A DNA stretch of 64,000 nt, from positions 62,001 through 126,000 of the forward strand of contig JANQRA010000018.1 in NCBI GenBank assembly GCA_028284765.1. The letters run 5' to 3'. This document shows, piece by piece, positions 2,078 through 54,526 of this stretch. The position numbers and the translations under genes are program-made. The notes beneath the pieces are model-generated. The model did not search any database, had not been told where the DNA came from, and was given only the letters and a program-made list of their open reading frames with translations. This DNA is from Acidimicrobiia bacterium (lineage in GTDB: Bacteria; Actinomycetota; Acidimicrobiia; Spongiisociales; ZC4RG35). Positions within the stretch are counted from its first letter, which is position 1. The number at the start of each line of letters is the position of its first letter.

Positions 2078-4159
2078 TCAGGCGCTGGCGGTTTGGTTGA
2101 TCCCAGCGAGAACTCGCTCCGCATCGATGAGGGCGTGTTTCTCGATGGCGAACTGGGGCCATGGGACGTCAAAGCCAGTCACGCGGACGATTGGGCCCTT
2201 CAAGTCGTACATGGCTTCCTCGGCCACCACCGCAGCTACTTCAGCGGCCACACCGGCGCTTCCCTGCGGCTCTTGGACCAGCAGCAATCTCCCGGTCTTG
2301 GCTACTGATTCGAGGACAGTCTCACGGTCCCAGGGGAACAGAGTCCGAAGGTCGATGACCTCCACGTCGAAATCAGAACGCTCAGCGGCTTTCAACGCCA
2401 CGGGGACCATGCCGCCGTATGTGACCAGTGTGAGGTCAGTGCCTTCCCGCCGAACGCGGGCTCGACCGATCGGCAACGTGTAGTGGTCTGTTGGGACTTC
2501 ATCGCGTCCCGCTCGATAGAGCACCTTTGGCTCGAGGAAGATGACCGGGTCGTCCCCGGTCAGGGCGGCAGCCAGCAAACCTTTGGCATCGATAGGTGTG
2601 GACGGGCAGATGACCACAAGGCCCGGAGCATGGACGAAGTAGGCCTCAGGCGAGTCGCAGTGGTGCTCGTGGGCACCGATTCCGGCACCGTTGGGGAATC
2701 GAACCACTACCGGAACTGATGACAGGCCTCGGGTTCGAAAGCGGAACCGGCCCAAATGGCTGACGATCTGATCAAAGGCCGGGTAGACGAACCCGTCGAA
2801 TTGGATCTCCGCCACAGGCCTCGCCCCTGCCAGGGCCATACCGACCGCAGTCCCAACTATCCCTGATTCGTTGAGCGGCGTATCGATCACACGTTGCTCG
2901 CCGAAGCGCTCCTGGAGGCCTTCCGTAACCCTAAAAACGCCGCCGGCCAGCCCGACGTCTTCGCCCATGACCACAACGCCTTCATCGCGTTCAATTGCCT
3001 CGCCAAGTGCAGCGTTGATCGCTTCAGCCATCGTCCACGACTCCGTCGGTCCGTCTGGCAGCTCGTCATGTCCCACGCGCCAAATCTCGTCCTCGCCGAA
3101 CTCGGTTTCTGGCTCCCCGTGTGAGCGCTCCATGGCATGGAGTTGGTCAACGATGTGTTCCGGGATACGGGCGAACCCGTGACGGACCGCGTCGTCTCGT
3201 TCCGGCAGCGGTTCGGCTTCGAGGCCCACGACGGCCGCCTCGACTGCGTCGGCCACTTCGTCGCGGACCTTCTCACCCACTCGCTCATCCCACTCGCCTC
3301 GGCGCACGAGGAATCTACGGAGCCGTTCGATGGCGTCTCGCTCCTTCCAGGCTTCGACTTCGGCGGGATCTCGATATAGAGAGTCGTCATCGGCGGTTGC
3401 GTGGGGGCCATAGCGGTATGTCATGGCCTCGATGAGTGTTGGCCCTCGGCCCTCCCGGGCCCGGCGCACCGCAAGCTTGGTGGCGAGGTACATGGCAATC
3501 GGGTCCATGCCGTCTACCCGCAGGCCTTCGAATCCGTAGGCCTCCGCCTTCTGGGCGATGGTCTCCGAGGCGGTCTGTTTCTCGTATGGGACCGAGATCG
3601 CATAGAGGTTGTTGGCGCAGATGAACACAGTCGGCGTCTTCCAAACACCTGCGAAATTCATGCCCGAGTGAAAATCTACCTCTGAAGTGGCACCGTCACC
3701 GAAGTAGGTGACAGCGACGGTTTCCTCGCCTCTCAGCTGTGTCATATACGAATAGCCGACGGCGTGGGGAAGCTGGCTGGCGATCGGAACGGCAACGATT
3801 CCGGTGCGGTACTTCTCTATATCCCAGGCTGCGTTGGGCAAACCCTTCCAATACGCGAGAAGGACCTCCATCGGGAGGCCCCTCGTGACTTGAACACCGT
3901 GTTCTCGGTAGCTGGGAAAAACGAAGTCGTTTGGCTCCAGAGCAAGAGCGGACCCGATCTGGACGGCCTCTTGTCCTTCGAGCATCGCGTAGGTGCCGAT
4001 GCGACCCTGCCGCTGAAGCGCCAGCATCTTCCGGTCCAACGCGCGAGAGAGAACCATGTTGCGATACATGGTTTGATAGAGCTCAGGGTCGAGTGCCGGG
4101 TCCTCTCCGATGAGAGCCCCTTGCGCATCGATGATGGAAAGTGTCTCGAATCGGCCCAT
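2078..4159 (-). CDS. Fused 2-oxoacid dehydrogenase E1 alpha-beta
   Basis: A 693-residue protein joining both halves of a thiamine-diphosphate E1 component. Residues 25-345 form the alpha part, with the ThDP motif GDG at 154-156 and NN at 183-184, and the alpha phospholoop-like 'YRYGPHATADD'. From about residue 375 the beta part begins ('MAEAINAALGEAIERD', then 'MGEDVG', 'FDGFVYPAFDQ', 'HEHHCDSPEAYF'). It should decarboxylate a branched-chain 2-oxoacid or pyruvate and acylate E2 lipoyl groups. The beta features fit the branched-chain type best, but substrate is inferred. No E2 or E3 gene is nearby. I prefer ATG at 4159; a TTG at 4177 would add six residues. It is divergent from hisC. Confidence 0.88.
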   Translation of the reverse strand: MGRFETLSIIDAQGALIGEDPALDPELYQTMYRNMVLSRALDRKMLALQRQGRIGTYAMLEGQEAVQIGSALALEPNDFVFPSYREHGVQVTRGLPMEVLLAYWKGLPNAAWDIEKYRTGIVAVPIASQLPHAVGYSYMTQLRGEETVAVTYFGDGATSEVDFHSGMNFAGVWKTPTVFICANNLYAISVPYEKQTASETIAQKAEAYGFEGLRVDGMDPIAMYLATKLAVRRAREGRGPTLIEAMTYRYGPHATADDDSLYRDPAEVEAWKERDAIERLRRFLVRRGEWDERVGEKVRDEVADAVEAAVVGLEAEPLPERDDAVRHGFARIPEHIVDQLHAMERSHGEPETEFGEDEIWRVGHDELPDGPTESWTMAEAINAALGEAIERDEGVVVMGEDVGLAGGVFRVTEGLQERFGEQRVIDTPLNESGIVGTAVGMALAGARPVAEIQFDGFVYPAFDQIVSHLGRFRFRTRGLSSVPVVVRFPNGAGIGAHEHHCDSPEAYFVHAPGLVVICPSTPIDAKGLLAAALTGDDPVIFLEPKVLYRAGRDEVPTDHYTLPIGRARVRREGTDLTLVTYGGMVPVALKAAERSDFDVEVIDLRTLFPWDRETVLESVAKTGRLLLVQEPQGSAGVAAEVAAVVAEEAMYDLKGPIVRVTGFDVPWPQFAIEKHALIDAERVLAGINQTASA

Positions 4160-10238: not shown

Positions 10239-10346
10239 ATCCTCAGGTTGACAGTCTCATATATGGAACTGTGCGCCGAGAGTTTGCGCCGACCGGGTAA
10301 AGCGTCGGCTGTGAGTGCCATATCTGGGACCTACAACCTGAGGAAT
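10239..10346. mobile_element. MITE-like element with 40-bp inverted ends
   Basis: The two ends are imperfect inverted copies of about 40 bp. The left end starts TCCTCAGGTTGACAGTCTC at 10240 and the right end, read in reverse, starts TTCCTCAGGTTGTAGGTC at 10346. Both continue with ATATGG and a GCCG block. The same ends bound the 52,579-53,630 unit. The interior is only about 28 bp and has no gene. It lies between the DUF3237-like gene and the enoyl-CoA hydratase gene, whose stop codon overlaps the last base. If the element is taken as CCTCAGG...CCTGAGG, AAT flanks both sides and could be a 3-bp target duplication. Mobility is inferred, not shown. Confidence 0.6.
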
Positions 10347-39792: not shown

Positions 39793-40040
39793 GTAGAGAA
39801 GACAATCACCTTTGTCTCGGGGGCGGATTCGACAATCTGACGCGTAGCCTCGAGGCCGTCGATTCCAGGCATGTTGATGTCCATGAGGACGATCTGAGGA
39901 CTCAGGTTGGCGGCAAGTTCGACCCCTTCCTCGCCCGTTCTGGCTTCGCCGACCACCTCGAATCCGTCGGTGAGCTCCACCACCATTCGTGCTGCCGAGC
40001 GGAAGGCGTCCTGATCGTCGACGATGAGAACTCCTGCCAT
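39693..40040 (-). CDS. Stand-alone receiver-domain protein
   Basis: A 115-residue receiver with no output domain: acidic pair in 'LIVDDQDAF', phospho-Asp in 'IVLMDINMPGIDG', Ser/Thr in 'VFSTYEPAE', and Lys in 'AFVSKSEF'. It stops 12 residues after the Lys, so the last receiver helix is short or missing. ATG at 40040 overlaps the stop of the NarL-type gene, and RBS-like AAGG lies just upstream. It may act as a phosphate sink or as a competitor for the two kinases. Confidence 0.78.
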   Translation of the reverse strand: MAGVLIVDDQDAFRSAARMVVELTDGFEVVGEARTGEEGVELAANLSPQIVLMDINMPGIDGLEATRQIVESAPETKVIVFSTYEPAEYESRAKEAGAVAFVSKSEFEPSVLTSV

Positions 40041-52578: not shown

Positions 52579-52617
52579 TTCCTCAGGTTGTGAGTCTCAG
52601 ATATGAGACTGTGGGCC
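52579..52617. repeat. Left terminal repeat of the 1.05-kb unit
   Basis: Begins TTCCTCAGGTTGTGAGTC and contains the inner dyad AGTCTCAGATATGAGACT (52594-52611). The DUF559 gene ends here, so the last residues of its protein come from the repeat. Confidence 0.7.
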
Positions 52618-53538
52618 GGCAGAATGGACCTTCCGAGCCTCAAGGGCGCTTCTGATTGTTCCTGCGACTGACGACGGCTCTTCTCGGATCATTCGCCACG
52701 TGAATCGCAATACGACCCATCCGGCTAGCTGCGCGGCATTGTCACGACGGCGGTCGATTTCAAAAGCATCGAAGAGGGTGTGCCACCGTCGACCGTCCGC
52801 CTCGATGATGACTCGGCTGTCGATGTAAGCGAGATCAACTCTGCCATCGATCGGCTTCAGCCAGGGAGCGTGAAACTCGCGGACAGGTTCCGGAAGCCCG
52901 ACCCTGTCGATCAAGTCGATGAGTTCCGCCTCTAGCTCTGACGTCTTGAGTGCCGGTTGCCCGGCACGACTCTCAATTACCGTTCTCAGGTTCCTCATTC
53001 CTGGTTTGCCTCTCCGAGTCAGGGCTTGCTGCATACTTGCGAGCTCTTCCAGTTCGATAGCCCTTGAGGCGAGTGCGTTGTCGACGACGCGTGCCAGCCG
53101 ATTGGGTCGGAGCACTTGTGCGAGATCCACCGTTGTGCGCACCACGTTGGTGGTTCTCAGCCCATTCACATCCTCGACATGTGCAGGAAGGAGATCTGTG
53201 GATTGATGGACTACAACTCCTTCGAATCGGTTGCTTCCGCGATGAGTCACGGTCACTGAGGGCGTGTGGTCTGCGATCGGTCCGAGGCCGTGAGCCTTAG
53301 CGGCCGACTGATGTGAGACGACCGCTCCAAGTGCCCGGTTTGCCGCGCGAAGCGCGATGTCTGAACGAGTGGCCGTGCCTGGCAGTGCGACGACTCCGTC
53401 ACCCACTCGAACGAAGACCCCTTCGTTGACCCGTCGGTAGAACGTTGCCTTGGACATACCAAGCGCTGCGGCCTCCTGCACCGTCAGAATTCCACCGTTT
53501 GCTCGGGCATGGCTGATGACTTCTCGGATATCTCCCAT
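52597..53538 (-). CDS. AbiEi-type HTH / DUF559 (Vsr-like nuclease fold) protein
   Basis: A 313-residue protein common in multiple copies in actinobacteria. Residues 5-45 are a winged HTH of the AbiEi antitoxin type ('GGILTVQEAAALGMSKATFYRRVNEG'; 53,419-53,496). The middle resembles the AbiEi core. Residues 230-305 are a DUF559 domain, with 'GRVDLAYIDSRVIIEADGRRWH' (52,786-52,851) and 'RRRDNAAQLAGWVVLRFTW' giving the Asp, Glu and His/Gln set of the Vsr-like nuclease fold. No AbiEii-like toxin is adjacent. ATG at 53538 is preferred over starts in the right repeat. Its role, DNA cleavage, defence or element mobility, is not known. Confidence 0.72.
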   Translation of the reverse strand: MGDIREVISHARANGGILTVQEAAALGMSKATFYRRVNEGVFVRVGDGVVALPGTATRSDIALRAANRALGAVVSHQSAAKAHGLGPIADHTPSVTVTHRGSNRFEGVVVHQSTDLLPAHVEDVNGLRTTNVVRTTVDLAQVLRPNRLARVVDNALASRAIELEELASMQQALTRRGKPGMRNLRTVIESRAGQPALKTSELEAELIDLIDRVGLPEPVREFHAPWLKPIDGRVDLAYIDSRVIIEADGRRWHTLFDAFEIDRRRDNAAQLAGWVVLRFTWRMIREEPSSVAGTIRSALEARKVHSAGPQSHI

Positions 53539-53554
53539 ATCTGGACAATGCCGA

Positions 53555-53568
53555 ATCCGAATTCGGAT
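53555..53568. promoter_or_regulatory. 14-bp palindrome upstream of the AbiEi-HTH/DUF559 gene
   Basis: A perfect palindrome ATCCGAATTCGGAT lies 17 bases upstream of the ATG at 53538, between the gene and its right terminal repeat. An AbiEi-type HTH protein could bind it and control its own promoter; this is inference. Confidence 0.45.
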
Positions 53569-53591
53569 GGGAACCCTTCTGCCATTCCTTC

Positions 53592-53630
53592 GGCTGTGCG
53601 TCTCATATACGAGACCTTGAACCTGAGGAA
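53592..53630. repeat. Right terminal repeat of the 1.05-kb unit
   Basis: Inverted copy of the left repeat, ending AACCTGAGGAA at 53630, with the inner dyad GTCTCATATACGAGAC (53600-53615). The ribokinase gene begins within or just after it. Confidence 0.7.
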
Positions 53631-53650: not shown

Positions 53651-54526
53651 GTGGATGTTGTTGTTGTCGGGTCGATCAATCAAGACGTGACCGTGAGGAC
53701 ACCGCGGTTTCCCGATCCGGGGGAGACGATCGTCGGGTCTGATCACTTCTTCGGGCCCGGTGGCAAAGGGGCAAACCAAGCTGTGGCCGCCGCCCGCATG
53801 GGAGCCAGGACGGCAATGGTGGGTCGTGTCGGGGATGACGGTTTCGGGCAGGACCTCACAGCCAATCTCCGGAGCGAGGGGATAGACACGTCCGCAGTCG
53901 GGGTCGATGAGAATACCTCCACCGGAATAGCTGTCATCACAGTCGACGACGCTGCCGAGAACAGCATCGTCGGCAGTCTTGGCGCCAACCTCCAATTGAC
54001 GCCGGGGCATCTCGAGAGGCACGAGCATCTGATAGCGGAAGCGAGGGTGGTGCTCGCCCAACTGGAGATTCCAATCGAAACCGTGATGGCTGCAGCTGAG
54101 ATGACCGAGGGGCGTTTCGTGCTGGTTCCGGCTCCGGCATCCGACCTGCCACAGCGTCTTCTCGAACACGTCGACATCCTTGTTCCCAATAGGGGAGAGC
54201 TGGCGATGCTCACCGGATCAGACGACGTCGGAAGCGCGGCTACCGGACTTCCATGTGACGTGGTTGTGACCCTTGGCGGCGAGGGGGCATTGCTCGTCGC
54301 CAACGGAGAGTCTCACCACATCGCCCCATTCGAAGTCGACCCGATCGACACAACCGGTGCGGGTGATGCGTTTGCTGGGGCCCTAGCCGCCTCCCTCGCC
54401 GAGGGCATGGGAATACGCGAAGCCGCAGTCATCGCCTCCGCTGCCGGAGGCCTTGCCGTCACCAAACTCGGTGCTCAGTCAGCGATTCCGTACCGCGACG
54501 AAGTCGAGGCGCTCGTCAACCGTTGA
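53651..54526 (+). CDS. rbsK: Ribokinase
   Basis: A 291-residue PfkB-family kinase. 'VVVGSINQDVTVRTPRFPDPGETI' is the substrate lid, 'GPGGKGANQAVAAARMG' the sugar site, and 'DTTGAGDAFAGALAASLAEG' has the catalytic Asp and the anion hole. It should turn ribose into ribose 5-phosphate. GTG at 53651 gives the normal family N terminus and has a weak AGTAGG upstream; an ATG at 53630, in the terminal repeat, would add seven residues. It starts the nucleoside-salvage gene set. Confidence 0.85.
   Translation: MDVVVVGSINQDVTVRTPRFPDPGETIVGSDHFFGPGGKGANQAVAAARMGARTAMVGRVGDDGFGQDLTANLRSEGIDTSAVGVDENTSTGIAVITVDDAAENSIVGSLGANLQLTPGHLERHEHLIAEARVVLAQLEIPIETVMAAAEMTEGRFVLVPAPASDLPQRLLEHVDILVPNRGELAMLTGSDDVGSAATGLPCDVVVTLGGEGALLVANGESHHIAPFEVDPIDTTGAGDAFAGALAASLAEGMGIREAAVIASAAGGLAVTKLGAQSAIPYRDEVEALVNR

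Follow-up and report, generated by a model that had tools for sequence, protein, structure and literature searches.

A nuclease gene between inverted palindromes

The window, by which we mean the whole 64-kb stretch of DNA that was analysed, contains an AbiEi-like/DUF559 gene enclosed by two inverted copies of a palindromic repeat. The unit they form adjoins VanY and PfkB genes. The features discussed here are:

52579..52627, + strand: left end repeat, with outer box TTCCTCAGGTT, dyad GTGAGTCTC-AGATAT-GAGACTGTG and tail GGCCGGCAGAATGG; it includes the gene's stop codon
52597..53538, - strand: AbiEi-like/DUF559 gene, identified by Pfam, PDB profile search, model and fold search, and alignment
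53582..53630, - strand: right end repeat, inverted (TTCCTCAGGTTCAAGGTCTCGTATATGAGAC...)
10239..10345, strand not assigned: gene-free inverted pair of the window end repeat, 107 bp, MITE/REPIN-like

Both ends of the unit (52579-53630) open with TTCCTCAGGTT, at 52579 on the forward strand and at 53630 on the reverse, and each contains a GTCTC-N6-GAGAC dyad, carried by the left end sequence GTCTCAGATATGAGAC and the right end sequence GTCTCGTATATGAGAC. The arms are 49 nt each, 71% complementary and spaced 954 nt apart. A 31-base end pattern, allowed up to 3 mismatches, matched four times in the 64-kb window, with none expected from 100 dinucleotide shuffles. These observations bear out the initial annotation, made from the letters of the window, in proposing that inverted repeats enclose the gene and that its stop codon (52597-52599, the gene being on the minus strand) falls within the left repeat. 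The remaining two matches, at 10239-10269 (+) and 10315-10345 (-), form a single 107-bp inverted pair without a gene, presumably the gene-free copy to which that annotation referred.

The open reading frame first opens at 53679, but the start assigned from an alignment to relatives is the ATG at 53538, giving a protein of 313 aa. Pfam identified AbiEi_4 (3.8e-7) and DUF559 (1.6e-6), both past cutoff; NCBIfam gave no match. In fold searches with a model of the protein, residues 3-194 matched the AbiEi antitoxin (PDB 6y8q, Z 12.3) and Rv2827c (PDB 1zel, Z 9.5), and residues 200-306 matched NGO0050 and I-Bth0305I (3hrl and 3r3p, Z 11.4 each) and Vsr (1cw0, Z 9.3). In PDB profile and fold searches alike, the nearest matches of the catalytic domain were NGO0050 and the homing endonuclease I-Bth0305I. 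Alignment of the paralogs showed that the catalytic-type residues E205, D237, E248, D250, H255 and D264 of the nuclease domain are invariant. A resemblance to TnsA was weak (Z 5.3) and is not claimed. As modelled, the window protein is an AbiEi-like winged-helix DNA-binding module fused to a Vsr/homing-endonuclease-like (EDxHD-type) PD-(D/E)XK domain.

No AbiEii toxin gene lies beside the window gene, whose neighbours are VanY and PfkB. The sole AbiEii found in the host genome is on contig C23, which carries none of the genome's seven AbiEi/DUF559 genes. A separate, ordinary AbiE pair is present there (L311, G000:C23:49000-53000), in which an AbiEi gene without nuclease (2319-3164) adjoins AbiEii (1519-2385).

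Seven paralogs and their repeats in the host genome

The host genome (G000; 2.9 Mb in 23 contigs, 98% complete) carries the window-family end at about nine other places, none of them with the gene; the initial annotation was right that a gene-free copy exists. Five are gene-free inverted pairs of 107-128 bp, at C19:72239-72345 (equivalent to window 10239-10345), C19:133596, C6, C12 and C5. The remaining four, at C22:191957, C22:85210, C19:20904 and C13:75618, carry one copy each. Comparison of 16 window-family ends showed an invariant outer box, CCTCAGGTT, and a conserved dyad in which some of the changes are paired (C-G/T-A at columns 19/28). Stem covariation in this family was above every slid control, yet was matched by 57 of 500 shuffles, making it suggestive rather than decisive. 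No target-site duplication was visible at six copies, and an Rfam scan of the window returned one tRNA only, with no match to the palindromes. The single repeat at G000:C22:191957-192008 (L002) lies ~50 bp upstream of a tmRNA gene (L002:1605-1954).

Seven AbiEi-wHTH/DUF559 genes are present in the host genome, the six others being 28-46% identical to that of the window. All seven are bracketed by palindromic repeats, and the repeat sequence is different for every gene: GAACCCTGGGTTC...GAACCCAGGGTTC surround the gene at C22:161792, for example, and CGTTCTGTGTCAG...CTGACACAGAACG that at C18:52352. Gene-free copies elsewhere in the genome were found for each of the six further repeat families, and every family has one gene-bearing member only. 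Those copies of these six families that were examined occur singly; the exceptions are an inverted pair (L050) and the L026 copies, which cluster beside their own gene. The copy at C18:64455 equals the right repeat of its gene over 49 bp, corresponding to the palindrome, and differs in sequence beyond the palindrome, which shows how large the moving unit is. An alignment-based scan of genome contigs gave 14 loci. The seventh paralog (L028, G000:C18:28110-28999) was matched in two pieces and looks broken; its bracketing repeats are still present.

As support, the initial annotation looked to identical 39-bp ends recurring in many copies around DUF559 genes. We instead found that each gene has its own repeat and each repeat family a single gene. 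Its reading of the locus as a mobile unit holds in part: the ends are real, and a Vsr-like nuclease and HTH module stand in the place of a transposase, but the unit is not multi-copy in the manner of an insertion sequence.

The dispersed copies are positioned between genes. By our own gene calls, 23 of 24 in the host genome are intergenic; 11 copies are in convergent, 12 in tandem and 1 in divergent settings, and 18 of the 24 lie within 60 bp of the 3' end of a gene. Candidate decayed gene ends inside two dispersed copies of the L023 family (L054 and L062) were rejected; the tblastn matches are the translated repeat itself, because the gene's stop codon lies within the repeat. A tRNA-SeC predicted by ARAGORN (anticodon TCA; L062:1371-1466, on G000:C19 near 39870-39965) adjoins a repeat of this family.

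Flanking repeats and empty sites across the Actinomycetota

A profile search of 80 genomes of the phylum gave matches in 47. We compared 390-bp left and right flanks for 87 genes, consisting of 80 fetched loci and the seven host genes, from 22 Actinomycetota genomes. Flank alignment scores of at least 18 were obtained for 53 of the 87 genes, distributed over 19 of the 22 genomes; the other 34 showed no clear flank repeat at this cut, and the window's own pair, at 16.5, falls just under it. Chance pairings reached the cut in 0.9% of cross-locus and 2.1% of same-genome comparisons, as did none of 984 window positions of the same geometry. Flanking copies are either direct or inverted in orientation, and the repeats are on average strongly palindromic (mean self-complement score 16.7 vs 7.0 shuffled). 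Among the sampled flanked genes, similarity of the repeats hardly followed that of the proteins (Spearman 0.07), too weak to serve as evidence of co-divergence.

When 15 repeat families from five genomes were searched jointly in all five, 150 of 150 listed matches fell in the genome of the cognate gene, with 2 to 38 matches per family (one place may count twice, once per strand). The restriction holds even between the congeners G097 and G128.

Many copies lie just past stop codons, often between convergent genes, as would be expected if the palindromes were ordinary terminators of transcription or hairpins that arose by chance close to gene ends. As a full explanation this is largely refuted, and we give it very little credence, as the families are sequence-specific and each is confined to a single gene and a single genome, none of the 984 control positions scored, Rfam gave no match, and presence or absence differs between species (see below). 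A terminator role acquired later is possible.

Ten AbiEi genes that lack the nuclease domain, two of which adjoin an AbiEii toxin gene, were scored with the same flank geometry; none reached the cut (maximum 13; Fisher p=2e-4). AbiEi antitoxins are DNA-binding repressors, and the N-terminal domain of the window protein is AbiEi-like, features that would fit repeats serving as operators of AbiEi-type autoregulation, with the dispersed copies forming a regulon and possibly a type IV toxin-antitoxin role. We consider this very unlikely. The absence of such repeats at the nuclease-less AbiEi genes argues against it, as does the position of the copies, which lie by the 3' ends of genes and in convergent intervals rather than at divergent promoters. 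Repeat identity spanning 45-75 bp also counts against operators, and the one AbiEii found in the host genome adjoins a separate AbiEi without DUF559.

Empty sites for such units had been anticipated in the initial annotation, and they were found, in congeners of other host species. The genus concerned, that of G097 and G128, appears Mycobacterium-like by gene content. The L180 unit, located between pafA and pafB of G128, is absent from many congeners, in which both flanks align as one block, and L177, L181 and L183 likewise have uninterrupted counterparts in congeners. The congener flank queries used 4800 of 8800 and 3199 of 4000 prepared bases, covering part of the loci, and one genus-wide search scored two candidates per genome, making its counts lower bounds. 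At the L177 site, two congeners (G145 and G138) have nothing, not even a palindrome, and others have unrelated palindromes alone. At the L123 site, G128 has the whole unit and G366 a single cognate palindrome without the gene. The G366 palindrome (L261) lies between two convergent genes, and its ends appear to give TGA stops to both. These comparators are different species, diverged at the junction, and show no readable target-site duplication or exact junction.

In the organism family of the window itself, five other genomes (G011, G013, G024, G026 and G027) have a DUF559 unit after VanY, with ends that have a common CCTCAGGT-like box and different stems; no DUF559 unit follows VanY in G009, G012, G016 and G017.

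The nearest rival to a repeat-spreading nuclease is a homing-type drive, in which the enzyme cuts sites with or without the palindrome, the unit is copied in by recombination, and the palindrome is the recognition site. The kinship of the catalytic domain with I-Bth0305I and NGO0050 is consistent with this, and the lone cognate palindrome at the L123 site is what a homing target or solo remnant would look like. Homing nevertheless fails to account for the many non-homologous intergenic sites that have a repeat and no gene, or for the palindrome-free empty sites of G145 and G138 at L177. We therefore regard it as unlikely, although homing by this nuclease may belong to one and the same process.

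A REP-like interpretation and its relation to known systems

We propose that the window unit is probably one member of a REP-like system, in which a single-copy DNA-binding nuclease gene lies between two private palindromes that the nuclease spreads. REP/RAYT, TnpA-REP, REPtron and REPIN systems have been described (PMC2817692, PMC3116915, PMC8266576); the RAYT gene is flanked by two REPs, and cognate REPs are abundant where the gene is present (PMC2817692). Because the facts presented here parallel RAYT/REP feature by feature (PMC2817692), we infer by analogy that the AbiEi module would recognise the palindrome and the Vsr-like domain would cut. The cognate palindrome could be recognised either in duplex DNA, as a dyad, or in hairpin/cruciform form, and the nuclease domain would cut or nick at it. 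Host replication or repair would then place a new ~45-75 bp repeat or inverted pair, for the most part in intervals bounded by gene 3' ends. Units that carry the gene would move rarely or be inherited vertically, and the gene-free repeats would be the non-autonomous, spreading form. Quick diversification of repeat and protein specificity would yield a private repeat for each gene.

Bracketing of the genes, gene-specific repeats, dispersal confined to the owning genome, placement between genes and empty sites are all observed; beyond these, the proposal assigns binding, cutting and mobilisation, each putatively, to the AbiEi-DUF559 protein rather than to another enzyme. Counting against it are the junctions between species, which show no readable target-site duplication, the score of the window's own pair below the flank cut, the stem covariation that shuffles also reach, the weak link between repeat and protein similarity, and the 34 genes with no clear flank repeat. 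Alternatively, another enzyme could move the palindromes, with the nuclease gene as cargo or as a guardian acting on hairpins. Catalysis by the nuclease is proposed here and its gene is single-copy per family, both of which would suit such an arrangement. However, units of ~1 kb are too small for a further transposase-size gene, and every repeat belongs to a single gene and its genome. Y1 transposases, the class for which we searched (RAYT/IS200, PF01797), were absent from 11 of the 12 genomes tested, the host genome among them. Movement by another enzyme thus seems improbable. Returning to the repeat-spreading nuclease, its wider form may well be correct: AbiEi-DUF559 proteins would constitute a second, non-homologous REP-spreading class, in which a PD-(D/E)XK nuclease mobilises its own palindrome, with fast diversification and near-private repeats.

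If true, this would supply the function of a large protein family now annotated 'AbiEi antitoxin' or 'DUF559' that is multi-copy in many Actinomycetota, account for where many intergenic palindromes of high-GC bacteria come from, and mean that a REP/RAYT lifestyle evolved independently around an unrelated nuclease. The many natural protein/palindrome pairs would be usable for studies of DNA recognition. Within the open-access literature searched, to which subscription papers and preprints largely do not belong, we found no description of such a system and no paper tying DUF559/AbiEi to palindromes or mobility.

Several known systems share parts of this organisation. Like MITEs and insertion sequences, the units have inverted ends, gene-free derivatives of ~110 bp, and presence/absence between species; unlike them, they lack a known transposase and have one gene per family, and no duplication of the target was seen at the six copies inspected. 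With a single gene in each family, the unit is not an ordinary insertion sequence. The fold of residues 3-194 is that of AbiEi from the AbiE type IV toxin-antitoxin system (PDB 6y8q; PMC3985639) and of Rv2827c (PDB 1zel), but here AbiEii is not adjoining and a nuclease domain is added; the ten nuclease-less AbiEi genes scored show no bracketing repeats. The nuclease domain belongs with the Vsr/DUF559 mismatch endonucleases (e.g., Caulobacter VsrA, PMC12907096), from which the fusion to an AbiEi module and the bracketing palindromes set it apart. Its catalytic fold is shared with free-standing Vsr-like EDxHD homing endonucleases (I-Bth0305I, PDB 3r3p, Z 11.4); unlike I-Bth0305I, the window protein has an N-terminal AbiEi module, and its gene has bracketing palindromes that recur gene-free at unrelated sites.

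The closest likeness is to REP/RAYT: one gene sits between two palindromes, the repeat is private to each gene, and cognate repeats are dispersed gene-free within the same genome, extragenically and as inverted pairs. The differences lie in the enzyme and in the repeats. RAYT is a Y1 HUH tyrosine transposase, whereas here an AbiEi-fold module is joined to a Vsr-like PD-(D/E)XK nuclease; the repeats are larger (45-75 bp) and fewer per genome, and the flanking copies are direct or inverted. The window family starts with TTCCTCAGGTT and has no GTAG/CGTC tag at its foot, and other families, judged by eye, have other feet. A cautious classification would group the system with REP/RAYT; it is not a member, because the defining Y1 enzyme is absent and the enzyme class is unrelated. 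In this bacterium and throughout the phylum, the pairing of a private palindrome with a nuclease resembles a counterpart, as yet undescribed, to the mobile repeats of REP/RAYT.
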